DNA of 40,707 nt from a virus. The position numbers and the translations under genes were made by a program. Below the pieces are notes generated by a model that did not search any database, was not told where the DNA came from, and was given only the letters and a program-made list of their open reading frames with translations. Below, in pieces: positions 3,232-17,766 of the stretch (position 1 is the first letter of the stretch; each line of letters begins with the position of its first letter). The stretch covers positions 1 through 40,707 of the IMG/VR virus record IMGVR_UViG_3300036826_000015; one strand, 5' to 3'.

Positions 3232-3275
3232 GCTAGCCAGCCACGTCTGACTGATCTTCAGCGTGACTGGCTAGC
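3232..3275 (-). promoter_or_regulatory. Strong leader hairpin upstream of ERF gene
   Basis: On the minus strand GCTAGCCAGTCACG pairs with CGTGGCTGGCTAGC, a 14-bp stem with one G-U pair and a 16-nt loop. No U-tract follows, so it does not look like an intrinsic terminator. It lies between the preceding gene's stop and the ERF ribosome binding site. It may protect the mRNA 5' end after cleavage or control ERF expression. Confidence 0.7.
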
Positions 3276-3280
3276 TTGTT

Positions 3281-3502
3281 TTAGGGTTGTGCGTTGCTGG
3301 GGAGAGCATTCACCAAATCGGTGAGCCTCACATAGTAGTAAGCACCCTTTTTGTCGCTACTTCTTATGCTTGGCACTTTTCCGTCCACGACCGCTTGTCT
3401 GAGCGCGGTCACTGGCATCCACGGATACTCCTTTTTGAGTAGCTTCAGTGCCCTTGTTAGAGGCATCATGTCGGTGCCCTCCATGGTTGCTGTCTTGCCC
3501 AT
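3281..3502 (-). CDS. Small winged-HTH (excisionase/MerR-like) DNA-binding protein
   Basis: 73 residues from ATG 3502, which follows AAAGGAG with 6-nt spacing. The sequence PVTALRQAVVDGKVPSI followed by a wing-like KKGAYYYVRLTDLVNAL resembles the helix-turn-helix plus wing of excisionase and MerR-type small regulators. It overlaps the upstream gene out of frame for 146 bp (3357-3502). Role probably DNA binding or transcription control. No specific symbol can be given. Confidence 0.65.
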   Translation of the reverse strand: MGKTATMEGTDMMPLTRALKLLKKEYPWMPVTALRQAVVDGKVPSIRSSDKKGAYYYVRLTDLVNALPSNAQP

Positions 3503-3716
3503 CTTTAACTCCTTTCTGGTTGTTGTCAGCTGGCAGCACCTTTGGGGATAGACCGCCGACAATCCGCTGGCCGCATAAATACACACGGCGCTGGTCGGCC
3601 TCACTCAGACCTTCCAACGCCTCATCCATGCGGTCGCGCATCCTGACGTTGTTATGTAACCGTGCCCACTTCGAAGCGCGGTCACGAACCTCATCATCTG
3701 TGAGGACTTTTGTCAT
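3357..3716 (-). CDS. Hypothetical early protein with basic low-complexity tail
   Basis: 119 residues, ATG 3716 preceded by the recurring AAAGGAACAACA leader, first gene after palindrome copy 2. The N-terminal ~65 residues are helical and charged (DDEVRDRASKWARLHNNVRMRDRMDEALEGL). The rest is rich in K, G, H, D and S. That tail coincides exactly with the overlap with the winged-HTH gene in another frame, so it may be a by-product of overlapping coding or of a sequencing frameshift. Function unknown. Confidence 0.6.
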   Translation of the reverse strand: MTKVLTDDEVRDRASKWARLHNNVRMRDRMDEALEGLSEADQRRVYLCGQRIVGGLSPKVLPADNNQKGVKDGQDSNHGGHRHDASNKGTEATQKGVSVDASDRAQTSGRGRKSAKHKK

Positions 3717-3753
3717 TGTTGTTCCTTTCGTTTGTTGTTGTTTCGTTGTCCAG

Positions 3754-3783
3754 CCCCTTATAATGAATTCAATATAAGGGTCA
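3754..3783 (-). promoter_or_regulatory. Palindrome promoter/operator, copy 2
   Basis: Minus-strand order is GTGACC, 16 bp, TATAAG, with the GAATTC-centred dyad (one mismatch, TTATAAG half). The TGA of its TGACCC is the stop codon of the upstream gene (3781-3783). A leader of about 35 nt follows, then the AAAGGAACAACA ribosome binding site of the gene starting at 3716. Confidence 0.75.
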
Positions 3784-4053
3784 CTGCCTAGCTAGCCGCT
3801 TCCACAATTCCTCTTCCACGCCATCAACACCGCCTGGTGGCGGTATCTGACAGGCATGATTGCCGCTGTTGTAGCGTAGGCTTTGCCATTGTAGATGCTC
3901 GTCACGAATCATGACGACACGTCCCAAATCGCTGCCGTAGTCGGCCAGAGTGATGGTTCCAAAGCCATCATAATCCTTGGGCGCACTTGTGCAGCGCACG
4001 TGGAATAGCTCGCTGTGCTCGCCGATTGTTACGTTGATTTTGTTATCTGTCAT
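3781..4053 (-). CDS. Hypothetical protein, 90 aa
   Basis: ATG 4053 follows AGGAGG with 5-nt spacing, a strong start. The protein is small, mixed in character and soluble (FGTITLADYGSDLGRVVMIRDEHLQWQSL suggests a beta-rich fold). No family recognised. It is the last gene of the helicase operon, and its stop codon is supplied by palindrome copy 2. Confidence 0.65.
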   Translation of the reverse strand: MTDNKINVTIGEHSELFHVRCTSAPKDYDGFGTITLADYGSDLGRVVMIRDEHLQWQSLRYNSGNHACQIPPPGGVDGVEEELWKRLARQ

Positions 4054-4065
4054 TGTTGCCTCCTG

Positions 4066-4506
4066 TTAATGACGCCAGCGACTTCGCCGGTTGGACGCGC
4101 TTTGTTGCGGCGTGACCCACCGGCAATTGCTTGGCGTGTAGTTTCCGTTGTTGTTTATCCGGTCAATGTAACGACCTTCTTGATACCCATGAGCAAGCGC
4201 CCACTTTCGGAATGACTCATACGAGTGCCACGCCTTACAGACCGTGATACCACGTGAGCCATAATACGTGGTTGGTTTCCGACAGCGCCAAAGCATCGTG
4301 CCCCAAATGCCATACAGCTTGGTCCGACTCTCGCCGTGTTTGCGAGTGCCCCAATTGGTGAGACACCCGCACGACATAGCACGTTGGCCATTGTTGCGAT
4401 CACGTTCGACTAGGTTGCCGCAGTGATTACAACGAAACAGCGCCCAGCCTCTAACCTTGCCTTGGGTGCCTTCTGGCCTAGTGCCGATGAATTGGACTTC
4501 AATCAT
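4066..4506 (-). CDS. HNH/AP2-type homing-endonuclease-like DNA-binding protein
   Basis: 146 residues. An N-terminal zinc ribbon (CNHCG, then SCGCL) is followed by LYGIWGTMLWRC, YYGSRGITVCKAWHSYESFRKWA and YIDRINNNGNYTPSNCRWVTPQQSASNRR. These last blocks are typical of phage HNH/AP2-like homing endonuclease and DNA-binding proteins. It starts in an ATGA overlap with the helicase and has no clear SD, so it is probably translated by coupling. Proteins of this type are usually mobile within phages, but here it is embedded in the operon without visible disruption. Whether it still cuts DNA cannot be judged. Confidence 0.75.
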   Translation of the reverse strand: MIEVQFIGTRPEGTQGKVRGWALFRCNHCGNLVERDRNNGQRAMSCGCLTNWGTRKHGESRTKLYGIWGTMLWRCRKPTTYYGSRGITVCKAWHSYESFRKWALAHGYQEGRYIDRINNNGNYTPSNCRWVTPQQSASNRRSRWRH

Positions 4507-6179
4507 ATAGCAAGCGTGGCATCTAACTGATCGTCATTAAACACACTGACCCTTTGCATTCTAGCTCTCACTTTCTCGCAGACGCTTTCCTCAAGCGTGT
4601 CGGCTGCCCACACGATCTTTTGGACCGAATGCGCGCCACCGGCACGATGGCAACGACCTAGCGCCTGCTTCAAGTCGATGCCGCTGTAAGTGGGACTGAT
4701 TAGGACTAGCCGTGGTTTGCCTTTGACCGTGCCTTGCAGGTCAATCCCCAAGCCACCAGCTTTGATGTTCATGACAACTATGTCCTCATCATCCGCGTTG
4801 AACCGATCTATCAACCGTTGACGGTGTTCCATGTTGTCCTCGCCGGTGATGGTGTTGGTTGTCCGCAGCTTCTTGGATACAGCTGTCACGCTGTCTTGGA
4901 AGTTTAGGACCACCACCACGGCATTACCCTCGTCACGGCCATCCTTGGCCATCTGGACAATGGTTGGGACCTTGAGCAATTCCACCTTCTGGCGTGCCCG
5001 CAATAGCTCGGTCAGTATGCAACTGCCTTTATCCCTGCGCTTGGATTCTTCCAGCTTGGCTAGCTCACGGTGCATTTCAGCATACACATCGTTGATCTGG
5101 CTGGCCAGACCGTTCATGTCGTATGCCTCACTGATGATCTGTGTCTGTGGGAATCGGTCGCCAAGGTCCGCTATCCTGATGCGTGTCCCGCGTGCTGGAA
5201 AGATTTGCCGGTGAATCTTGGACAACACGTCGCGGCCACCTACAAACTCCCAGCCAAACCTAGCTTTGACCACGCCATGAGCACGCGCCCAGCCCCAATA
5301 AGCGTTGGGATGCGCTATCAGGTCGGTCAGCAACGCCACAAACTTCATGTGCAGCGGGTTATCGGCTGCCGTGGCGCTAGCTCCTATGACCTTGTAGCCT
5401 TGGTCCAAGGCAGCTATGCCCATGTGACAGTTTTGGGTCGTGGCATCCTTCAGCCGGTGACATTCATCGAACACGAACAGCCGGTTGTCAGGGTCCAGGT
5501 CGGTGAACTCAAACTGTCGCCACTTGCGGCCAGACTTGGGATGAACCTTCTCAACCCACTCGCCGTATTGGGTCCTGCCGGTCTTGAGCATTTCATAGTT
5601 GATAACGTCAATGCCCACCTTGAATCGGCGTGCCATGCGCTTCCACGGTCGCATTATGTTCTTGGGACAAACCACGAACAGCTTGCGTCCTAACACCTTG
5701 GCGACCGCCACGGCCACGCCTGTCTTGCCGGTGCCGGTGTCGCTGGCGTCCAGAGCGCCGTTGAAACCGTCCAGCACCATCGCTAACCGCCTCACACTTG
5801 GCAGCTGGTAGCGATAGTTGTTGCCGGTTTCCTTTTCGATCTCATGGTAAATCTCGCAGACTTCCAGAAACCGTTTCATCAGGTCATCGGGCAATTCTGC
5901 CTCAGCTTGCTCGGCACGTTGCTGGATAGCTTCACGCTGCTTGACCGCTTCCAAGTCTTTGGTCACTAGCTCGCCATCCACGTCGCTCCACTCGGTCAGC
6001 CGCCATTCGCCTTTCCATTTGGATATGGAATAGCCTTGCTGCCGGAGATAGCCGGTGCGCCATTCCTTCCAGAATGACTCGCCTTGAATCGGCCACTCAC
6101 GGATTCGACGCTTGCCGTGCTTGGTGTCGATGACCTTCGGCTCACCCCAAGGCACATCGTTGATACTGAATGGACTCAT
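4503..6179 (-). CDS. SNF2/SF2-type DNA helicase
   Basis: 558-residue superfamily 2 ATPase. Walker A DTGTGKTG is at 147-154, the DECH box at 238-241, motif III-like GASATA at 266-271, and the C-terminal motif VI QALGRCHRAGG at 505-515. NIKAGGLGIDLQG at 471-483 is typical of SNF2-like helicases. About 120 N-terminal residues precede the ATPase and form an uncharacterised helical domain. Its likely role is remodelling DNA or recombination intermediates during replication. Start ATG 6179 overlaps the upstream stop as ATGA, with an AAAGGCGG ribosome binding site. Confidence 0.85.
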   Translation of the reverse strand: MSPFSINDVPWGEPKVIDTKHGKRRIREWPIQGESFWKEWRTGYLRQQGYSISKWKGEWRLTEWSDVDGELVTKDLEAVKQREAIQQRAEQAEAELPDDLMKRFLEVCEIYHEIEKETGNNYRYQLPSVRRLAMVLDGFNGALDASDTGTGKTGVAVAVAKVLGRKLFVVCPKNIMRPWKRMARRFKVGIDVINYEMLKTGRTQYGEWVEKVHPKSGRKWRQFEFTDLDPDNRLFVFDECHRLKDATTQNCHMGIAALDQGYKVIGASATAADNPLHMKFVALLTDLIAHPNAYWGWARAHGVVKARFGWEFVGGRDVLSKIHRQIFPARGTRIRIADLGDRFPQTQIISEAYDMNGLASQINDVYAEMHRELAKLEESKRRDKGSCILTELLRARQKVELLKVPTIVQMAKDGRDEGNAVVVVLNFQDSVTAVSKKLRTTNTITGEDNMEHRQRLIDRFNADDEDIVVMNIKAGGLGIDLQGTVKGKPRLVLISPTYSGIDLKQALGRCHRAGGAHSVQKIVWAADTLEESVCEKVRARMQRVSVFNDDQLDATLAI

Positions 6180-6430
6180 GGCCGCACCGCCTTTCGCAAC
6201 TCACGCTGCCACTTGCCTACACCGTGAAGCGCAATGCCGGTTGCTCCGGTATAGCCGGTGGCACGTCCATCGTTGTCGAATACAACGCTGCCGGTGTCGG
6301 ACGTTTGCAACGTGGCGTGTCGCTCGCTGATTTGTAGGATTCTGGCCAAGCCGATTTCACAGTGCCACTTGTGTCGGCGTGTCGCTCTATACCAGACAGA
6401 CACCAGGTCGCCTCTCTTGAACTTTCTCAT
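6176..6430 (-). CDS. Small KOW/SH3-like protein, 84 aa
   Basis: Start ATG 6430 (MRKFKRG) follows AAAGGA with 6-nt spacing. An upstream in-frame ATG six codons earlier lies inside the SD region and is less likely. The opening FKRGDLVSVWYR and LARILQISERHATLQTSDTG look like a small beta-barrel of the KOW or SH3 kind. First gene of the helicase operon, downstream of a leader hairpin and palindrome copy 3. Function unknown. Confidence 0.65.
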   Translation of the reverse strand: MRKFKRGDLVSVWYRATRRHKWHCEIGLARILQISERHATLQTSDTGSVVFDNDGRATGYTGATGIALHGVGKWQRELRKAVRP

Positions 6431-6442
6431 CTTGTTTCCTTT

Positions 6443-6476
6443 CTTCAATGGCGCATCACCCGCGCCAAGGTTGAAG
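6443..6476 (-). promoter_or_regulatory. Leader hairpin with GGGTGAT loop (A)
   Basis: On the minus strand CTTCAA pairs with TTGAAG (outer stem) and TGGCGC with GCGCCA (inner stem) around the loop GGGTGAT. It ends 12 nt before the start codon, just before the SD. Same loop as at 7267, 10414 and 12126. Confidence 0.7.
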
Positions 6477-6508
6477 CGTCATTGCTTCATGCTGCCGTGT
6501 CGGTCCTA

Positions 6509-6932: not shown

Positions 6933-7244
6933 CTAATAGCGATGCACATACACCGTAGTTGGTGGAGCGTAGATGATTGGGGTCCTAGCTGTGGCAGCGT
7001 ATATCGCACCGGCATTAGCCATGCCAGTAGCAAAGGCCATAGCCGCTTGCTGTGCTTGGGCCTGTTGACGCTGTTTGTCGGCCAATATCTGCTCATCCAG
7101 TCGCGCCTGTTCATAAAACTTTTGCGGACTGTTGGGCATGTTGGCTATCGCTGCTTGCCTGCTGTTGACGTATCGTTCAAAGGCAGGGTCAGCACACGAT
7201 ACTAGGGTGAACGCGGTCAAGATGACCGCCACTAACTTACTCAT
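6933..7244 (-). CDS. Lipoprotein, 103 aa
   Basis: N-terminus MSKLVAVILTAFTLVSC ends in a lipobox with Cys17 as the lipidation site. The mature part has a Q- and A-rich helix (QILADKQRQQAQAQQAAM) and a Tyr-rich C-terminus. It should be anchored in the outer membrane or outer leaflet. The genes downstream encode an inner-membrane and an exported protein, so the three could form an envelope or spanin-like set. This is inferred from topology only. Weak SD (AAAGACAAACAACA), preceded by leader hairpin B. Confidence 0.7.
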   Translation of the reverse strand: MSKLVAVILTAFTLVSCADPAFERYVNSRQAAIANMPNSPQKFYEQARLDEQILADKQRQQAQAQQAAMAFATGMANAGAIYAATARTPIIYAPPTTVYVHRY

Positions 7245-7266
7245 TGTTGTTTGTCTTTCTGTTGAA

Positions 7267-7287
7267 TGAGAGCATCACCCGCTCTCA
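7267..7287 (-). promoter_or_regulatory. Leader hairpin with GGGTGAT loop (B)
   Basis: TGAGAGC pairs with GCTCTCA around the loop GGGTGAT, a perfect 7-bp stem, 22 nt before the lipoprotein start codon. It lies in a 119-bp gap after the GHKL ATPase gene, so here the hairpin is intercistronic rather than promoter-linked. Confidence 0.7.
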
Positions 7288-7363
7288 GGGTTGGACCGTG
7301 ATTGGCCCTCACTGGCCGCCAAGCCGAATAGCCTGACGACCAGCTGAGGAGCAATCCCTTGGG

Positions 7364-8827
7364 TTACTTGTTTGTCATCCGATCTACAAGCGCACGATGA
7401 ATGCGCTGCCTGCGCAGCTGCCAGTCCTCAGTTTCCTTTAGCCGCTTGGCTGCGGACCGCGAGAACAACTGGTCAATGATCTTGACTGACTCATTGATCT
7501 TGGCCGCAAATTCACCCACGACCGTAGCCAGGATGGTCTTGCGGTTGCGTGCCGTGTCAACCATGTATGGATGTTCCTTGTTTATCCACGCCACGAATGC
7601 CGCATCTTGTCCGTCAAAGGACACCAGAGCGCCTTTCATCTGCTTGTCGCTCTTGAACACGAAGTTCAGCTTGGCCGCTCGCCGTGGCTCAGGCTTGCCA
7701 TCAGGGTCAAGTGGCTGATCTGGATGCGTATGCTTATGCTTGTTCGGACCGCGCTTGCCGCCTTTGCGCTCAAATTCCGGCACGTCGATGACAGCGCGGG
7801 TCACGGTCAAGTCGCCTTTCAGCAACAGGTCGCTCAACTCCAACGCTAGGTCGGCGAAAGCAATGGACAGTTTGTTTTCCTCTTCCATGTCCAAGATTGG
7901 CTGGATTTGATGGATGATCTGCTTGCGCAACGACTGATACACTACCTGGTCGGCAATCTCATCTTTCTCCGTGGTCAACGGCCAACTGCCTTTCAGCTTG
8001 ATGAAGCCGGTGACTTGGGTCGCTGGGACCGCCTCACCCTTGGCATTGAAAAAGAAGTCACGTGTTGACGTGATAACTCTGTCCGCATAGCACAGGTGAA
8101 TCTTGACCGCGTCTGAGGGTAGGTCATCACAGATGCCTACCTCACCGACCGCTTCCAACGCACCCACCTTGGCTTTGACCTTCACCGATGTTTTGAACAC
8201 CGGCATCGCTGTCTCCAACGGCTGGCCATTGAAGAATATCTCCACGCCAGCGGCCAAGGCAGGCGCAAACTTGATCGCCAAGTCACGCGTGATGTTCTCT
8301 TCACGAACAATCTTGCCCGCAACCACCTTGCCTATGATGGCTGTGCCGTGCCTCAGCTTGAGTAGGTCCTTGGGAGTGTTGTGAGAAGTCGGCTTGAACA
8401 CCTTGTCCTCAATCTCAGGGTATCGGTTGGACTCAAACACCGCATCCCAATCCACCTTGTCATGAGCCAGCTTGCCTTTGCGTAGCGTCCAGACCACGCA
8501 ATGATGGAACAGCCACAGGATGGCCTTGCTTCCACCGAAGCCAAACTTGCCGATGTCGCCTTCAACTTCATCAGCGCCCATGCCTAGCACGAACAAGGGG
8601 AACACGTCTGGCCGGTCGGGTTTGCTCGGCATCCTCATGCCCACGCCATCATCCACGATTGCCAACAGCCGGTTATGCCGGTTGTATCGAATCCAGATGC
8701 GGCCAGCGTTGCCACGACCTTTGCCGCGTGAGTTGTCAACGAGTTCAGCCAGAGCGCCGGACACTGACCAGCGTTCATTGCGGATGGCATACAACGCTCG
8801 TGGCGACGGTATCGCTTGACGCTTCAT
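7364..8827 (-). CDS. GHKL-superfamily ATPase (MORC/Hsp90/MutL-like)
   Basis: 487 residues beginning at ATG 8827 (AAAGGAG, 7-nt spacing). The N-terminal Bergerat ATP-binding fold is clear: N-box ALAELVDNS (E28, N32), G1 box IVDDGVGM (57-64), and G2 box GKFGFGGSK (93-101). It lacks a histidine-kinase dimerisation helix. The middle carries a second domain like the S5 transducer of GHKL machines, and the C-terminus is basic. Such proteins clamp or remodel DNA or proteins with ATP. The phage role is unknown. A basic 161-residue protein is encoded immediately upstream with an ATGA overlap and may be a partner. Confidence 0.8.
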   Translation of the reverse strand: MKRQAIPSPRALYAIRNERWSVSGALAELVDNSRGKGRGNAGRIWIRYNRHNRLLAIVDDGVGMRMPSKPDRPDVFPLFVLGMGADEVEGDIGKFGFGGSKAILWLFHHCVVWTLRKGKLAHDKVDWDAVFESNRYPEIEDKVFKPTSHNTPKDLLKLRHGTAIIGKVVAGKIVREENITRDLAIKFAPALAAGVEIFFNGQPLETAMPVFKTSVKVKAKVGALEAVGEVGICDDLPSDAVKIHLCYADRVITSTRDFFFNAKGEAVPATQVTGFIKLKGSWPLTTEKDEIADQVVYQSLRKQIIHQIQPILDMEEENKLSIAFADLALELSDLLLKGDLTVTRAVIDVPEFERKGGKRGPNKHKHTHPDQPLDPDGKPEPRRAAKLNFVFKSDKQMKGALVSFDGQDAAFVAWINKEHPYMVDTARNRKTILATVVGEFAAKINESVKIIDQLFSRSAAKRLKETEDWQLRRQRIHRALVDRMTNK

Positions 8828-9309
8828 TGATGCGCTCCTTTCTCGTTGATGCTCTTCCACTGCTCGCCATCCCATGCCCACCCCAGCGGTGCCACGAATG
8901 GCTTGGCTGGCGTGGCTCTGAGATATGCTCTCATCAGCTTGATGAACAGCGGCCAGTTACCTTCTTCACTTGCCTCGTGAATGAAGTCCCTGAATAATGC
9001 CTCATTGAACAAGCGCCAGACCGGAATCAGGCTTGGCACGTGGACCATCTGTAATGGACCTACACGGCCAATAACCTTGGACTTGAGCGCCTTTCCCTTG
9101 CCCTTAGATTTGTTTTGTCGCACCGGCAAAGATGCCTCAACCGGCTTGGTTGCGCCATTTCTGCCAGATTTGGGCCTGTAAGCCGGTTTTGGGCGTGCGA
9201 CGTTTGCGCCTATCGCGTTTTTATTCGCTGTCGGCTGTCTTGACCCAGGCTTTGGGAGATAGCGCCCAGTGACGCTATCCCGCAGCCGTTTAGTGGTGAT
9301 TGGCTTCAT
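8824..9309 (-). CDS. Basic protein with disordered N-terminus, 161 aa
   Basis: The first ~85 residues are rich in K, R, P and G (SVTGRYLPKPGSRQPTANK, PVRQNKSKGKGKALKSK), which suggests an unstructured nucleic-acid-binding arm. The last ~70 residues are helical (VWRLFNEALFRDFIHEA, WPLFIKLMRAYLRA). Its stop overlaps the GHKL ATPase start as TGA/ATG, so the two are probably made in concert. Family not recognised. Confidence 0.65.
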   Translation of the reverse strand: MKPITTKRLRDSVTGRYLPKPGSRQPTANKNAIGANVARPKPAYRPKSGRNGATKPVEASLPVRQNKSKGKGKALKSKVIGRVGPLQMVHVPSLIPVWRLFNEALFRDFIHEASEEGNWPLFIKLMRAYLRATPAKPFVAPLGWAWDGEQWKSINEKGAHQ

Positions 9310-10497: not shown

Positions 10498-10782
10498 TCA
10501 ATCGCAGAATCGGTCGCGTGCTCGCCGACCGAATTCACCGTTGCCCGCCTTTGGTGCGTCCGCGTTGCGACGTTTGCGCTTACGCACACGGACCACACAG
10601 GGATTGGCCGGTGCTGCGCCGACCAAGCTAAAACGTTTGCCCTGTTCACGTTCCCTCATGATTTGCGCTATACGGTGCCGAAAGTCGCTGACTGTCTCTT
10701 GAGCCAATTTGCGCGCTCCGGCAATTCTAGCGCAAACGTCGCTGCGGCGCTGGGCCTTTCTGCCGCGTGTCGGACCGCTCAT
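10498..10782 (-). CDS. Basic hypothetical protein, 94 aa
   Basis: ATG 10782 follows GGGAGG with a short spacer. The protein is Arg-rich throughout (MSGPTRGRKAQRRSD, VRVRKRKRRN) with a helical centre (LAQETVSDFRHRIAQIMRERE), as in small DNA- or RNA-binding proteins. It ends an operon of short genes reaching back to 12105. Family not recognised. Confidence 0.6.
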   Translation of the reverse strand: MSGPTRGRKAQRRSDVCARIAGARKLAQETVSDFRHRIAQIMREREQGKRFSLVGAAPANPCVVRVRKRKRRNADAPKAGNGEFGRRARDRFCD

Positions 10783-11000
10783 TTTGCCCTCCCGATGATA
10801 CCGTCCACCATACGCTGGAAACGGTCGGCATCAGCCAATTGCCGTTCTTGCGCTCCGGTGACGGTGTTCATCCGATGTAACCACGCCTTGGCGCTGCGCT
10901 CTTGCTCCCACGCAGGACCGAAAAACATTTCAACCCGCCGTGTCCCAAGGTAGCCATACCAATTGCCGTAGATGTTCTGATGTATCCTAGCTTTCATCAT
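10779..11000 (-). CDS. Hypothetical protein, 73 aa
   Basis: Starts at ATG 11000 (or the adjacent ATG 10997) behind GAGGAAAACAACA. The N-terminus reads as a small beta motif (IYGNWYGYLGTRRVEMFFGP), followed by a helix (SAKAWLHRM). The start lies within the last codons of the upstream gene and its stop overlaps the next start as ATGA. Unknown function. Confidence 0.65.
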   Translation of the reverse strand: MMKARIHQNIYGNWYGYLGTRRVEMFFGPAWEQERSAKAWLHRMNTVTGAQERQLADADRFQRMVDGIIGRAK

Positions 11001-12701: not shown

Positions 12702-12974
12702 TTAGCTGTTGATGATGCGCTGCCGGTAGTCGTTGCCGTAGATGGACCACCACTGACGCTCAACTTTGAGCAGTGGCAGCTTTCCGTTGGCCGTGCGCTG
12801 CTGGTTAATCTCCCTGAGCGCCATCGCCTTGGCCAGCTTCAATAAGCCGGTCTCATAGCATTGCTGCATCCGATAGATGCTGGTGTTGTTAGCTATCGCC
12901 ATCACTTCCCAACTCATGTTCGGATGGTCGATGACGTATTGCTCACGCTTGGTCAGTTTGTATGCTTCGTTCAT
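12702..12974 (-). CDS. Putative helix-turn-helix small protein, 90 aa
   Basis: ATG 12974 overlaps the upstream stop as ATGA. The N-terminal KLTKREQYVIDHPNMSWEVMAIANNTSIYRMQQC reads like a helix-turn-helix in which MAIANNTSIYRMQQ is the recognition region. This is a visual impression only. The C-terminus has paired Trp and Tyr residues. Could be an early regulator. Confidence 0.55.
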   Translation of the reverse strand: MNEAYKLTKREQYVIDHPNMSWEVMAIANNTSIYRMQQCYETGLLKLAKAMALREINQQRTANGKLPLLKVERQWWSIYGNDYRQRIINS

Positions 12975-13105
12975 TGTTGTTCTACTGCTACCCGCCTTTC
13001 AAACGGGTTGTTGTTGGCTGTCTTGTTGTTGGTGTAGCGTCCAGCGCATTGGCCGAACATAAACGCGGCCACGAACAGCGCGGCCACGATCAATACGATT
13101 CTCAT
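12971..13105 (-). CDS. Short exported or membrane peptide, 44 aa
   Basis: Too short for ordinary gene callers but well supported: ATG 13105 behind AAAGGACAACAACA, with the stop overlapping the next start as ATGA. The N-terminal MRIVLIVAALFVAAFMFGQC is a signal-anchor or lipoprotein-type sequence ending in Cys20. The rest is Asn-rich. First coding gene after the candidate structured RNA, so its leader may be the RNA itself. Confidence 0.6.
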   Translation of the reverse strand: MRIVLIVAALFVAAFMFGQCAGRYTNNKTANNNPFERRVAVEQQ

Positions 13106-13139
13106 TGTTGTTGTCCTTTCGTTCTATTGCTTGATGCAA

Positions 13140-13720
13140 CAGAGAGAAACGGCTGTGTGTCACTCATAGCCGCTCGTGCTCTGTAGCACTTCGTTGACTG
13201 CCTACATTTGTGTGTCCTACTGTCGTTGGCCATTTAGCTGGCACTTTCGGTCCACAAGACTTTCGGCAATCGCCTTATCCAAGTCACTTTCGCAACGTCC
13301 CACGTTTAGCACGTTCACCCTACTTTCATTGGAGATATTGCGCTTGGCGCACTCACTTTCGGGTTTGCCACGGTTCTGCGTGGGTCATCCACTAATCATT
13401 GACTTGGCTCATTCCTCGCCTCACTCAACGTGGCTCTCTGCTCGCCGATCTTACGTTGGCCGCTCACGCACGATGCATCGTGCTCCTGATGAGGTGACTT
13501 CGCTGGGCGCTTCGTCACTCGCCTTTGGGCAATGGCTCCTTTCGGATTTTACGACCTATCCTTGCGTGCAAGGTCTCAGTGGGACTTCCACCGGCCTGAG
13601 CGTTTCCCTCGCTCACCCGCCGCGTCCGCTTTTCACTTCGCTTCTACCGGCTGTCCGGTCACTTCAGCTTACTTCGCTTTCGCCGCTTTTCCCTATCAAA
13701 ATCAGACTATCCATATGACG
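13140..13720 (-). ncRNA. Candidate large structured RNA (about 560 nt)
   Basis: The minus strand has frequent stops in all frames and reads as structured RNA. Visible local stems include CAGAG/CTCTG enclosing CGGCT/AGCCG (13146-13181), TGTAG/CTACA, GACTT/AAGTC, AACGT/ACGTT, TGCGC/GCGCA, the self-complementary GCACGATGCATCGTGC (13467-13482), CCTTG/CAAGG, GTGG/CCAC, TGAGCG/CGCTCA and ACCGG/CCGGT. GCCACG pairs at long range with CGTGGC. CGAAAG occurs six times (13244, 13260, 13287, 13356, 13539, 13677). Phages are known to carry large ornate RNAs (ROOL, GOLLD), but I cannot assign this to one. I see no group I or group II intron core. Ends are approximate and the strand is inferred from gene direction. 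Confidence 0.5.
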
Positions 13721-13760
13721 GAACGTTCGAAAAGAAAAGAACTTTTTTTGCTCCGCGCAC

Positions 13761-14008
13761 CGATTTTTGGGAAGTAACAGAGGGTCTGTGTTTTACGCTG
13801 CGAAATTTATTCGTGGGCATACGTGTCCACGCCGTGGGCATAAAACTTTTTTGGCGTTTTTGGCGCTCGCCGGTCGATTTTTGAGCCGGTCGAATCGGTT
13901 TGCGCCGACCGGATTTGAACGCATTTCTGGCCACGTTCTGGTGGCGCGTGGGCATAGCGAGTTTATGGACACGCGTGGGCACGCTCTGTCCACGTGCGTA
14001 GGATTGCG
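13761..14008. other. Non-coding repeat-rich spacer, possible control or origin region
   Basis: About 250 bp with no convincing gene. On the minus strand TATGCCCACG-like boxes occur several times among CGTGG/CCACG stems, GACCGG-containing repeats appear three times, and CAAAAATCG occurs twice in a longer imperfect repeat. TGGACA and TGTCCA form a hairpin just after the kinase stop. Iteron-like repeats beside A-tracts would fit a replication origin or a protein-binding control region. A terminator function for the hairpin is also possible. Short frames here (CPR- or MPT-repeats) simply mirror the DNA repeats. Confidence 0.4.
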
Positions 14009-14533
14009 CTAGATTGCGAGCGTATCCGTGACGCGGTCGGCTATTGCGCTCACATCTTCGAACGATTCGTTGCGCATCCTCGACACGGGAAACGTGTGGG
14101 CGATACGGTCGATGAGCGTGGCGCGTGACCGGTGAAATTGCTCCGGTTGCGTATCGTGACGCGCTGTGTGTCGCCGCGACTTTTCCGGTGCGCTCGTTTC
14201 GATGAGGAAAAGCGTGAGCCGGTCGCCAGCCGCTTGAAAGAAACCAGCGCGTGTGAGCCGGTCGCCTTCGAAAAGGATGGTGGCCTTGTCAGGCACCTTG
14301 GAAAGAAACCGGATTGCGTCTGGCTGGACCGCCATTGATAGCCGGTCGGTCCCACCAAACAACTCATCATCGTGATAGATGCCCAAGACGTAAAGACCGC
14401 GCTTGGCGTATTGGCGACCGACCACCAGCCGGTATTTGAACAGCGTGTAATCATCGCCCAGGCGCTTGAGCACTTCGCGCATGACGGTTGTCTTGCCGGT
14501 TGCTGGCTCACCGATTATGCCCACGACTCTCAC
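14009..14533 (-). CDS. P-loop nucleotide/DNA kinase, candidate base-modification kinase
   Basis: 174 residues. GEPATGKTT at 8-16 is a Walker A loop, followed by an NMP-kinase-like core (TILFEGDRLTRAGFF, LTLFLIETSAPEKSRRHTAR). Small P-loop kinases of this type phosphorylate 5-hydroxymethyluracil in DNA in hypermodifying phages (HMUDK). The helical-domain protein next door supports that reading. A deoxynucleotide kinase is the main alternative. The start is GTG 14533, only 9 nt downstream of the TATAAG of promoter copy 6 and with no SD, so the mRNA should be leaderless or nearly so. Confidence 0.7.
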   Translation of the reverse strand: MRVVGIIGEPATGKTTVMREVLKRLGDDYTLFKYRLVVGRQYAKRGLYVLGIYHDDELFGGTDRLSMAVQPDAIRFLSKVPDKATILFEGDRLTRAGFFQAAGDRLTLFLIETSAPEKSRRHTARHDTQPEQFHRSRATLIDRIAHTFPVSRMRNESFEDVSAIADRVTDTLAI

Positions 14534-14540
14534 ACGCCTA

Positions 14541-14571
14541 CCCTTATATTGAATTCATTATAAGGGGTCAA
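14541..14571 (-). promoter_or_regulatory. Palindrome promoter/operator, copy 6
   Basis: Minus strand TTGACC, 17 bp, TATAAG: the closest match to sigma70 consensus spacing in the set. The dyad has one changed base (CTTATAATGAA half). TGA of TGACC is the stop codon of the upstream gene (14568-14570). The kinase GTG lies 9 nt past the -10 box. Confidence 0.8.
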
Positions 14572-15473
14572 GCCACACGATTCTCGCAGAGCAAATCCGG
14601 TCGAAACGTTTCACGCCGATAGTCCCACAGGACCGACCAATCAACGCCATCTGTAACATTTGTTTGCGCGGACCGGATTTCATCGGCCTGTCTGTCGATG
14701 TAGTATCCTGGCCAGCGTTTCCCAAGGTGATACTTCTTGTAGGCGCAGAGGGTTGTTTCAATGTTCCATACGTTGCTACCTGGTTGCTGTTCGCGCAACT
14801 CGTCCACAACATCTTGGAAGCAGGCTTGTAGGTAGCCCATGTCACGCTGCGATAGCCGCTTGCCGTTGCCGTGGGTGTTGAACTCCGGCATCCCAAGCGC
14901 CATCACCAGACCGTTGCGACAACTCTCAGCGTCACGCATCTTCATGGTGCGTGGTTCCATTGGAAAGCCGGTCACTACATGGACCGCTTCGGTGTAAAGC
15001 CATAGCCCAAAACGTCCCATTTGAAACCACTTGGATGCCTCGTCACTCACGATCTTGTAAGTGGTGAACGGGTCATGCGGCACTTCGAATTGGCGCAGGT
15101 AGCCTTCTTGTGTGAGCGGTCGGACCGCTGCGCTGTAGCTGCGAAGCATATCCACCCACTGGTTACGCGAGCGGACCCAGCGCCGGTCGGTCTGGAACAC
15201 TACCTTGTCACGATTGGCTTTCCACCAGCGGTCAGCGCGATTGAAGTCAACATTCTCCCAATCGGGAAACTCATTGTAGATGTAGAACGTGGTCGCACCG
15301 CAGTAGCAAGTGCTGTAGATGTAGGCCAGCCAATAGCGTTGTTCCGTATTTAACTCAAAACGATCGCAGATGTAGCGCAGCATGGAATAGCTAGGGTCAA
15401 CATCGCCGATTGCCCTGCTTTCAGCGTGATATTCTGGATAGGACTTGAGTGACGGATAGCTGGCCCAATTCAT
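14568..15473 (-). CDS. HMUDK-helical / aGPT-Pplase-like DNA hypermodification protein
   Basis: 301 residues, mainly helical. RYWLAYIYSTCYCGATTFYIYNEFP (46-70), FQTDRRWVRSRNQ (93-105) and YTEAVHVVTGF recall the helical domain that accompanies 5-hydroxymethyl-dU DNA kinases and the alpha-glutamyl/putrescinyl-thymine pyrophosphorylase (aGPT-Pplase) families. This is recognition from memory, not a search. Those proteins act with a P-loop kinase to activate hmU and displace the phosphate with another group. Here the kinase is a separate gene just downstream, and an amidotransferase and a TET/JBP oxygenase are just upstream. Starts in an ATGA overlap at 15473. Confidence 0.6.
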   Translation of the reverse strand: MNWASYPSLKSYPEYHAESRAIGDVDPSYSMLRYICDRFELNTEQRYWLAYIYSTCYCGATTFYIYNEFPDWENVDFNRADRWWKANRDKVVFQTDRRWVRSRNQWVDMLRSYSAAVRPLTQEGYLRQFEVPHDPFTTYKIVSDEASKWFQMGRFGLWLYTEAVHVVTGFPMEPRTMKMRDAESCRNGLVMALGMPEFNTHGNGKRLSQRDMGYLQACFQDVVDELREQQPGSNVWNIETTLCAYKKYHLGKRWPGYYIDRQADEIRSAQTNVTDGVDWSVLWDYRRETFRPDLLCENRVA

Positions 15474-16096
15474 ACCGCCAAGGCATAACCAGGTGGCACC
15501 GGCTTGGCATCCTTGAAGCCAGCACGTTCAAATATGTCTCGCGTGGATGCGAAGTAGTTGGAGCCATTATCTTGGACACGCCAGAGCGGTCGCTGTTTGT
15601 TACGCAAGGCCACCAGCTTCTTGTTGTGAAGCATGACACCGGCAAAACTGAATTCGCCGGTCGCTACCCAAGTCACCCAATCCTCGCCAGCTAGGACTTT
15701 GCGCACGAATATCTCGCCATCATTGTCCGTGATCGGCTTGAACCCAAACTCCTTGCCCCATTCCTTCTTGGTGCTCATTCGGATAACACCGTTGAACGCC
15801 ATGGCAACACCGTCGATGTAGATTGGCTGGTTGTTAGTTTCATCCTTCCAATCGCCGCTGGTGGAGTAGCGGCAGTGAGCTATCAGCTTGAGCGATATGT
15901 TCTGGCTGGCTACAACGCGCAAGTGAGTTTGAGCCATGTCCAACTCGCTGAACCGAGCACAGAACAACTTGGGTCCGTTGTAATAGGCCAAACCAAAGGC
16001 GTGAAGGCCACGAATCTTGCTCTCATTGAACAAGGTCAGTAGGCGCTCACTCGTTTGTTTGCTGCCCTTGCCTTGAAAGCCTATCACTGCGCACAT
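15470..16096 (-). CDS. Class II glutamine amidotransferase (stand-alone glutaminase domain)
   Basis: 208 residues. Cys2 follows the initiator Met, as required for the Ntn-type nucleophile after Met removal. RGLHAFG (29-35), HCRYSTSG (74-81, like GlmS HTRWATHG), NNQP (88-91) and AFNGVI (100-105) match the GATase II glutamine-binding and oxyanion positions. It would release ammonia from glutamine for a partner enzyme. No synthase domain is fused, so the acceptor enzyme is separate, and neighbours suggest a modified base as acceptor. Start 16096 follows AAAGGAG with 7-nt spacing and overlaps the upstream gene by 50 bp. Confidence 0.8.
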   Translation of the reverse strand: MCAVIGFQGKGSKQTSERLLTLFNESKIRGLHAFGLAYYNGPKLFCARFSELDMAQTHLRVVASQNISLKLIAHCRYSTSGDWKDETNNQPIYIDGVAMAFNGVIRMSTKKEWGKEFGFKPITDNDGEIFVRKVLAGEDWVTWVATGEFSFAGVMLHNKKLVALRNKQRPLWRVQDNGSNYFASTRDIFERAGFKDAKPVPPGYALAV

Positions 16097-17093
16097 CGCC
16101 TAGCTCCTTTGCTCGCCGCAACTCGTGTGTAGCATCGCCGCATTCCATCATCTTTTCCCTGTAATACAGGACAAGTGAGACTCGTTCAAACATGCCTTTG
16201 TTACCACGCATCGGACTATTGCCATGCCACTCGTGAACGTCCGCGCAGAGGACACAGCCGGTCCTCATATCCAGGGCAACACGGTAACGTGGAAACACGA
16301 AGTAACAACCGTCAAACCGGCCACGGCGCAAACAACTCATCACGCCAAAGCCTTCTTTCAAGTCGCCTACGTCCTTGTGAACGGCTGTCTGGAAGTTGCG
16401 GTTGACCGTGACAGTGGTGAAACACGTCCCATGAATGTAGAAGTCCTTGCTGGTATCGGTGATGAACTTCTTTTGTCGGCTGTAACGCTCAGGCACTAGG
16501 TCCTTGAATTCGCGGTCGATCTTTTGGATGAATGGAATGACACGAGCGAAGCGTGTTGGATGGTTCAAGTTGTAGGCAGTCAGCCGACAATACGGGTTGC
16601 GTGCGCTCCGGTCGAAGTAACCCACGATGCCGCTCTGGACCTTCTTGGCATAGTTGGTGTTGGACAACGTGCCATCATGCTTGATTGGCCGTGCTCGCGT
16701 TGCGCTGATCTGTTTCGCTCCGATGCCGTGTGCCTGTAGGACCTGTTCTGCTTCCTGCTCGGTCATCATGCCAGCTGCGTAGCCACGGTTGAAGGTTGGC
16801 GCTGCCGCATCCTTCCAAACGGGAAACGCGGCAGCGCACTCTTCTGCGCTCAACACGCATTGCCGCAACCGACAAAGCAACGAGCCATCCGGCTTGAACA
16901 CGTCCGCGTCATCCGTGAGCAACAAGTCATAGCTGTCATCGTCTAACAGGTGCGCGGCCAGCTTGTCGGTTTCTGCCTCGGTTAAGGCTGCGCGCTTGAG
17001 GTGAATCACCTTGACCGGTGTTTTGGTCTTGGGCCTGTAGTCCAGCTGAATTGCTCGTGGTGGGACGTTTACCGTCTGTTGAATCGTTGCCAT
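16047..17093 (-). CDS. TET/JBP-family 2-oxoglutarate/Fe(II) DNA-base dioxygenase
   Basis: 348 residues from ATG 17093. The double-stranded beta-helix is at 215-312: TAVHKDVGD gives the HxD iron ligands (H239, D241), YFVFPRYRVALDMRTGCVLCADVHEWHGN gives the distal His (H287 or H290), and RVSLVLYYR gives the 2-oxoglutarate Arg (R304). The order and HGN motif are typical of phage TET/JBP enzymes, which hydroxylate 5-methylcytosine or thymine in DNA. The N-terminal ~210 residues are uncharacterised. No C5-cytosine methyltransferase lies in the window, so thymine is a serious candidate substrate. The N-terminus overlaps the ParB-like gene by 158 bp. Confidence 0.8.
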   Translation of the reverse strand: MATIQQTVNVPPRAIQLDYRPKTKTPVKVIHLKRAALTEAETDKLAAHLLDDDSYDLLLTDDADVFKPDGSLLCRLRQCVLSAEECAAAFPVWKDAAAPTFNRGYAAGMMTEQEAEQVLQAHGIGAKQISATRARPIKHDGTLSNTNYAKKVQSGIVGYFDRSARNPYCRLTAYNLNHPTRFARVIPFIQKIDREFKDLVPERYSRQKKFITDTSKDFYIHGTCFTTVTVNRNFQTAVHKDVGDLKEGFGVMSCLRRGRFDGCYFVFPRYRVALDMRTGCVLCADVHEWHGNSPMRGNKGMFERVSLVLYYREKMMECGDATHELRRAKELGDVRSDRLSRQGQQTNE

Positions 17094-17766
17094 GCCCACG
17101 ATGGTAGCATGTGTCCACGGCAGCGACAACGGTGTCTGTGACGTTCTCAGTTGCGAATTGTTCTTGGAGCGTCCGCACCTGGTCCATGAACATAGGCAGC
17201 GTTTCGACCGTCAGGAATAGCTGGACCATCCTGATATGCGCTGGCAACAAGTCGATTTCATCCTTGGACAACGGCTGTATCTCATCGTCATCGTTGGCTG
17301 CGATGCCGCGCACCATTCGTTCCAACTCACCCGCGCTGAATCCGGTCAACGACAAGTCGAATGCGCCGGTGTCCAATTCCATTAACAACTCACTCAGCTG
17401 CGGAAAGTCCCAGTCACCGCCATGCTTGTTGGCTGCAATCATGGCCGCTTTCTCCGTGGCCTCATCCCACTGGACAACACGGTAGTTGTAACGCTCGCCT
17501 TCAAACAACACGTAGCCTTCGGCAACGGTGCCCTTGGCTGTTGGGACCTTGTAGCGCCTCACGATCTTGACCGGTGCTTCGCCTAGCTCCTTGACACGCT
17601 GGTGGCCGCCGACCAGGTGGCCGGTCCGCTCGTTGAGAATCAAGCCGGATAGGTCGCCAAACTTACGCAAACTGTCAGCCAGCATCTTGAGTTGTTCTGG
17701 CGTGATCTTGCGCGGGTTGAGCGGGTTGGCCGCATCAGCCAGTTGAGCTACAGATTTGATCTTCAT
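16936..17766 (-). CDS. ParB/Srx-like protein leading the hypermodification operon
   Basis: 276 residues. The first ~100 form a ParB/sulfiredoxin-like domain: LNPRKITPEQ (16-25), LRKFGDLSGLILNERTGHLVGGHQR (33-57, with the conserved GGHQR), and EGYVLFEGERYNYRVVQWDEATEKAAMIAANK. Such domains often travel with DNA methylases and other base-modifying enzymes. The last ~50 residues are low in complexity and coincide with the out-of-frame overlap with the TET/JBP gene. ATG 17766 is 6 nt downstream of the TATAAC box of promoter copy 7 with no SD, so it should be translated from a leaderless mRNA. Confidence 0.75.
   Translation of the reverse strand: MKIKSVAQLADAANPLNPRKITPEQLKMLADSLRKFGDLSGLILNERTGHLVGGHQRVKELGEAPVKIVRRYKVPTAKGTVAEGYVLFEGERYNYRVVQWDEATEKAAMIAANKHGGDWDFPQLSELLMELDTGAFDLSLTGFSAGELERMVRGIAANDDDEIQPLSKDEIDLLPAHIRMVQLFLTVETLPMFMDQVRTLQEQFATENVTDTVVAAVDTCYHRGHGNDSTDGKRPTTSNSAGLQAQDQNTGQGDSPQARSLNRGRNRQAGRAPVRR

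Follow-up and report, generated by a model that had tools for sequence, protein, structure and literature searches.

The locus considered here raises the question of what occupies a long noncoding gap in a phage genome, at the point where the DNA-modification genes end and the early genes begin. The window, i.e., the whole stretch of DNA that was analysed, is the 40,707-base IMG/VR phage record IMGVR_UViG_3300036826_000015. Upstream of the gap lies a DNA-hypermodification block that encodes a Tet/JBP oxygenase, a glutamine amidotransferase, ADDT (amino acid:DNA transferase) and a P-loop kinase. Downstream are small ORFs and genes for a ParB-like protein, an HSP90-like ATPase, a helicase, an Erf annealing protein and an exonuclease, and the opposite end of the window carries portal, protease, head protein and tail sheath genes. 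The gene map thus agrees with the original prediction, made from the sequence of this stretch, that the gap is placed between the kinase gene and a run of small early ORFs. The first small ORFs downstream of the gap have no Pfam matches. The features that define the setting, with L002, L015 and L275 denoting related IMG/VR phage loci, are:

14568–17129, minus strand: ADDT, glutamine amidotransferase and Tet_JBP genes (Pfam)
14009–14533, minus strand: P-loop kinase, the last DNA-hypermodification gene (weak Pfam/PHROG matches)
13110–13725, minus strand: proposed untranslated early leader or noncoding RNA (absence of ORFs; syntenic noncoding gaps in L002, L015 and L275)
12971–13105, minus strand: first small early ORF past the gap, 44 aa, without a Pfam match

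No credible gene is found on either strand of the region 13110–13725. The longest ORFs on the minus strand inside the gap are 40–43 aa, in keeping with the claim that no minus-strand ORF survives there. The plus strand contains an ORF of 180 aa (13176–13718), but its codon score is −0.214 per codon, compared with 0.129 to 0.325 for 14 genes, and a tblastn search with its product against 50,697 phage records gave zero matches; by codon score and absence of homologues, a protein-coding gene in the gap was rejected. The minus strand of the gap is rich in A and G, with an AT skew of 0.31 and a GC skew of 0.17.

Relatives were sought with kinase and ADDT searches, and then with a ParB search. Two close relatives were obtained with the kinase and ADDT, namely L002 (a 10-kb fragment) and L015 (the 35.8-kb record G011), and among the best 80 of 171 relatives in the ADDT alignment search, the next after these two is 58% identical. 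The ParB search added L275 (the 50-kb record G049), in which matching tail and early genes are present. Scans of genome contigs gave no relative, and tblastn searches of phage records with the exonuclease, helicase, ADDT, kinase and portal gave only distant matches of <60% identity. All four phages have a noncoding gap at the junction between modification and early genes. Its length from the last modification gene to the first early ORF is ~0.9 kb (window), 1.06 kb (L002), 0.94 kb (L015) or 0.8 kb (L275), of which some 0.6–0.75 kb follows the A/T block or the end of the gene. Kinase homologues stand ahead of the gap in L002 and L015 too. In L275, a QueC/PTPS/radical SAM/GTP cyclohydrolase block (3243–6501) takes the place of the TET/ADDT block of the other three phages, i.e., the DNA-modification chemistry is swapped at one genome position. 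Because the upstream genes differ in L275, it is the junction that is conserved rather than any one neighbour. In L015, the first larger ORF past the gap (10500–10952) encodes a small HNH endonuclease.

The conserved proteins that flank the gap are about 40–77% identical among the relatives, while the gaps themselves barely align. Two segments of the gap region in the window were aligned to relatives:

13730–13774, minus strand: A/T-tract block at the 5' edge of the gap, aligned to L015 9762–9806
13600–13674, minus strand: stretch weakly aligned to L002 8505–8580

The local score of the 45-nt A/T-tract block shared with L015 was reached by 1/400 and 2/400 block shuffles, and that of the 75-nt stretch shared with L002 by 17/400 and 8/400. 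A similar A/T block is present in L002 (8355–8399), with a sigma-70-like promoter beside it. Between L002 and L015, the score of the A/T block is reached by 25 of 400 block shuffles, and that of the stretch directly past the kinase by 1 of 400. The gaps of the window and L275 have nothing in common by alignment, the score being reached by 198/400 shuffles. Long pairwise alignments with loose gaps were left out, since their gap costs allowed runs over the entire region. The L002 and L015 stretches contain one promoter-like site each, only at the 5' A/T block and within chance as single sites (shuffle mean 0.6–0.7); no such site is present at the A/T block of the window, and none in L275. Scanning viral contigs for the A/T-block pattern returned 17 records, where kinase and ADDT matches occur only in the L015 record, and the other 16 have 32–35% GC.

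In L002 and L275, candidate Hammerhead_II ribozymes lie where the gap ends on its 3' side, and the first start codons, at 9095 and 7317, follow 45 and 27 bases later, respectively. By permissive cmscan, the L002 site (8956–9050) scores 38.4 bits against a cut-off of 37 (E 2e-4 in 46 kb), and the L275 site (7217–7290) scores 33.6 bits, which is under the cut-off (E 1.2e-4). The L002 site was missed by a fast-filter scan, and also by a search of 49 records with RF02276, which gave nothing over the cut-off. An independent descriptor scan of both strands of 267 loci (2,103,650 bases) matched at these two sites only, and zero matches were returned from one block-shuffled copy of the same DNA. Unconstrained folding produces a three-way junction in L002 and L275 alike, and pairing between loop I and the 3' tail, as read by eye, is possible in both (UGGCU/AGCCA in L002 and UGGUC/GACCA in L275); such a pseudoknot is known for type II hammerheads, according to the available text of PMC3088659. 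With a score over the cut-off, the core and the pseudoknot, the L002 site is predicted to be a type II hammerhead. In the L275 core, CAGAUGA replaces CUGAUGA, and because of this single change the ribozyme may be inactive. Hammerheads at the 3' edge would mean that this strand is transcribed there in L002 and L275, and that the transcript probably cuts itself. In the window, neither Rfam nor the descriptor detects the Hammerhead_II core (CGAAAC, GUC and CUGAUGA with three stems) or any other ribozyme, and Rfam finds none in L015.

Taken together, the noncoding junction is conserved and most probably serves as the leader of the early transcripts; in two of the four phages, this leader appears to be cut off by a hammerhead. 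For the window itself, we consider it about an even call that the region is an untranslated leader at the head of the early transcription unit, in a small set of phages that have contractile tails and modified DNA. Transcription would start near the A/T-tract block (~13730–13774) and extend across the gap and on into the small early ORFs. A ribozyme cut after position 9006 in L002 and 7249 in L275 would release a free leader RNA of ~580 and up to 750 nt, respectively, and the early mRNA left behind would carry a hairpin and a 5' hydroxyl. Because no recognised ribozyme is present in the window, its leader would either stay joined or be cut otherwise, possibly by a host RNase or at the hairpins between 13175 and 13123:

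13147–13175, minus strand: hairpin followed by a pyrimidine-rich run, a possible 3' end or processing site (folding)
13123–13143, minus strand: hairpin immediately ahead of the first small ORF's ribosome-binding site (folding)

The first of these was not selected in a terminator scan. The second is the 3' hairpin that had been described as adjoining a ribosome binding site; it has 8 bp with a mean pair probability of 0.91, and is followed by a GAAAGG ribosome-binding site and an ATG at 13105. The leader would set the level or stability of the early mRNA and, in phages that release it, may function as a free RNA. Against a leader stand the lack of a ribozyme or promoter-like site here in the window, the lack of a ribozyme in L015, the core change in L275, the chance-level promoter-like sites and the weak similarity among the gaps. 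Hammerheads are widespread in bacterial and phage DNA, and to our knowledge it is mostly unclear what they do there. Their repeated presence between a long noncoding stretch and the early genes would provide a concrete case, in which a leader is detached from the early mRNA.

The gap could instead be mainly a DNA element, i.e., a replication origin or early control region composed of the repeat cluster, the A/T-tract block and the spacer, with no folded-RNA function in the window. We regard this as rather unlikely, but because the upstream edge of the gap is at a GC-skew minimum beside a repeat cluster, a DNA role is a serious rival. Two features are relevant:

13762, minus strand read 5' to 3': minimum of the detrended cumulative GC skew of the window
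13726–14008: kinase–leader spacer carrying the GTGGGCA repeats at 13813, 13834, 13948 and 13975, possible protein-binding sites

The skew minimum is 37 nt from the upstream edge of the gap (13725) in the window, and the detrended minimum of G049 is 160 nt from the gap start in L275, both as plain distances; for L002, a 10-kb fragment, the raw minimum is at 8362, inside the A/T block. The minimum in G011 is 3.5 kb from the L015 gap, which speaks against a DNA element, although it lies on a flat plateau. Of the 15 genome-wide copies of GTGGGCA, counted on both strands, four lie within the 283 bases directly upstream of the gap. The spacer in the window, where GTGGGCA/GTGTCCA repeats cluster beside the A/T-tract block at the skew minimum, is origin-like. 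The absence of a fold signal, described below, also favours a DNA element, but the hammerheads in L002 and L275 require RNA, and an origin and a leader are able to coexist. The junction may double as an origin or early control region and, if it is an origin, the ribozyme is placed beside a replication start.

A near-perfect 24-bp palindrome, CCTTATA(C/T)TGAATTCAATATAAGG, is present in 13 copies across positions 17–40508 of the window, where none is expected by chance. The copies are centred near 27, 3767, 6521, 9519, 12193, 14553, 17783, 21932, 25545, 28067, 31549, 35324 and 40498, with a spacing of 2.4–5.2 kb through early and late modules, and are apparently intergenic, often at the stop codon of the upstream gene. 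L002 has one copy, and in the L015 phage there are CAACTAACTTGAATTCAAGTTAGTTG-like sites that share the core of the palindrome in the window but differ in the arms. The L275 phage has a dispersed hairpin of its own, GAAGCTTAATCGAAAAACCGATTAAGC, whose 14-mers occur up to 8 times, and one copy related to it is found at the start of the noncoding gap. The dispersed palindromes are possibly stoperator-like, partition-site-like or RNA-processing hairpins.

It is doubtful that the gaps constitute a fast-evolving class of large phage RNAs of ~0.6–0.75 kb, transcribed at the outset of infection from the modification/early junction, cut from the early mRNA by a hammerhead or an equivalent, and acting in trans as folded RNAs. 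A leader that is also active as a free RNA would extend the short list of large phage RNAs without known function. A new large ornate RNA of the ROOL/GOLLD kind, acting in trans with a conserved fold and perhaps forming multimers, is in our judgement improbable. Its size and strand composition, the hammerhead in the relatives and a palindrome in the gap agree with such an RNA, and the gap also contains a repeated hexamer:

13468–13483: perfect 16-nt palindrome GCACGATGCATCGTGC
13244–13361, minus strand: cluster of four CGAAAG (13244, 13260, 13287 and 13356)

The palindrome had been reported as a self-complementary hairpin at 13467–13482 and is perfect, though shifted by one base; any 16-nt palindrome is present in 4/1000 dinucleotide shuffles of the gap. 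The sixfold occurrence of CGAAAG, as originally counted, is correct for the minus strand of 13140–13720 (the copies outside the cluster are at 13539 and 13677, and a seventh is at 13116–13121) and exceeds the shuffle expectation, with six copies reached in 0/1000 dinucleotide shuffles and, after post-hoc correction, some hexamer at ≥6 copies in 5/1000. CGAAAG is not retained in the relatives, the L002 gap having two copies and the L015 gap none.

With respect to folding, the z score of the whole gap on the minus strand is −1.65 (20 shuffles) or −1.22 (100 shuffles), compared with −1.45 ± 1.83 for 26 pieces of 600 nt from the same genome. Windows of 200 nt within the gap have z from about 0 to −2.9, where 136 such windows across the genome give a mean of −0.87, an s.d. 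of 1.47 and a 5th percentile of −3.6. The values are within the background and therefore stems are as numerous in the gap as anywhere in the genome, so the description of the minus strand as full of short stems does not hold as a signal. The L015 gap folds well (z −5.4), but pieces of its own genome give −2.15 ± 2.19, and folding energy was rejected as evidence, as other pieces of the same genomes reach z of −5 to −7. Early intergenic or small-gene segments at L015 10901–11100 and L002 9151–9250 have unusually stable folds, with 200-nt z down to −7.0 and −5.8, respectively.

Scores from a purpose-written, structure-aware pairwise aligner give no signal of a conserved fold across the gaps, which are four very diverged members. 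The window–L002 score (135.6) was reached by 0/12 shuffles (117.7 ± 8.5) but by 2/12 genomic pieces (126.7 ± 11.4). For the window and L015, 5/12 shuffles and 5/12 genomic pieces reach the score, for L002 and L015 8/12 of each, and for L002 and L275 2/12 of each. Because self-comparison was the only positive control of the aligner, this negative result is weak evidence.

The gap matches no Rfam family. The ROOL and GOLLD models gave zero hits in the full window, whether at the gathering score or with E allowed up to 2, and zero in 12900–14100 at E up to 10, where the group I and II intron models gave none either. This places the gap outside these families, discards a group I or group II intron, and makes the initial reluctance to name it ROOL or GOLLD correct. 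Weak matches in the window, such as those to asX2, the L20 leader and miRNAs, were rejected as far under the cut-off. ROOL and GOLLD RNAs often sit near tRNA islands, which is typical but not strictly defining, and no tRNA or tmRNA was found anywhere in the window. Of the original reading as a large structured phage RNA, the noncoding nature stands, supported by a junction that recurs in four phages and a 3' hammerhead in two relatives; a conserved fold is not supported, with no excess stability, convincing whole-gap alignment, Rfam match or nearby tRNA. A fast-evolving spacer of the ordinary kind, whose features arose by chance and with ribozymes peculiar to the two relatives, would agree with the folding inside the background and the lack of similarity between the window and L275, but is very improbable given the identical position in four phages, the enrichment of CGAAAG and the palindrome, the 5' block common to the window and L015, and ORF-less gaps of at least 350 nt being uncommon among the other loci compared.

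Comparison with known systems begins with the neighbouring genes. The Tet_JBP, ADDT, amidotransferase and kinase genes immediately upstream of the gap are the same as in what we take to be phage 5mC hypermodification modules with TET/JBP enzymes; they tell of phage DNA chemistry, and say nothing of the nature of the noncoding region. ROOL and GOLLD, as presented in the available part of PMC12286853, are likewise several-hundred-nt noncoding stretches in phage DNA, and the gap in the window differs from them in having no Rfam match, no nearby tRNA and no demonstrated conserved fold. The VIPR vrRNA arrays, some with hammerheads interspersed in the account available from PMC13142463, share with our loci a phage noncoding region adjoining a hammerhead. 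They are recognised by 9–16 YNNGG repeats, but the five-base GGY/NN repeats are absent from all four gaps, and a VIPR guide RNA was rejected as the best repeat fit in the four gaps, 15–16/24 positions, is no higher than elsewhere in the genomes. A ribozyme-ended early leader was not found described in the open-licence literature. Type II hammerheads are found in phage intergenic regions (PMC3088659, as far as its available text goes), and the candidates in L002 and L275 would belong to this class, with its pseudoknot between loop I and tail. Unlike in the window, which has none, the putative ribozyme in these two relatives closes a long noncoding stretch right before the early genes.
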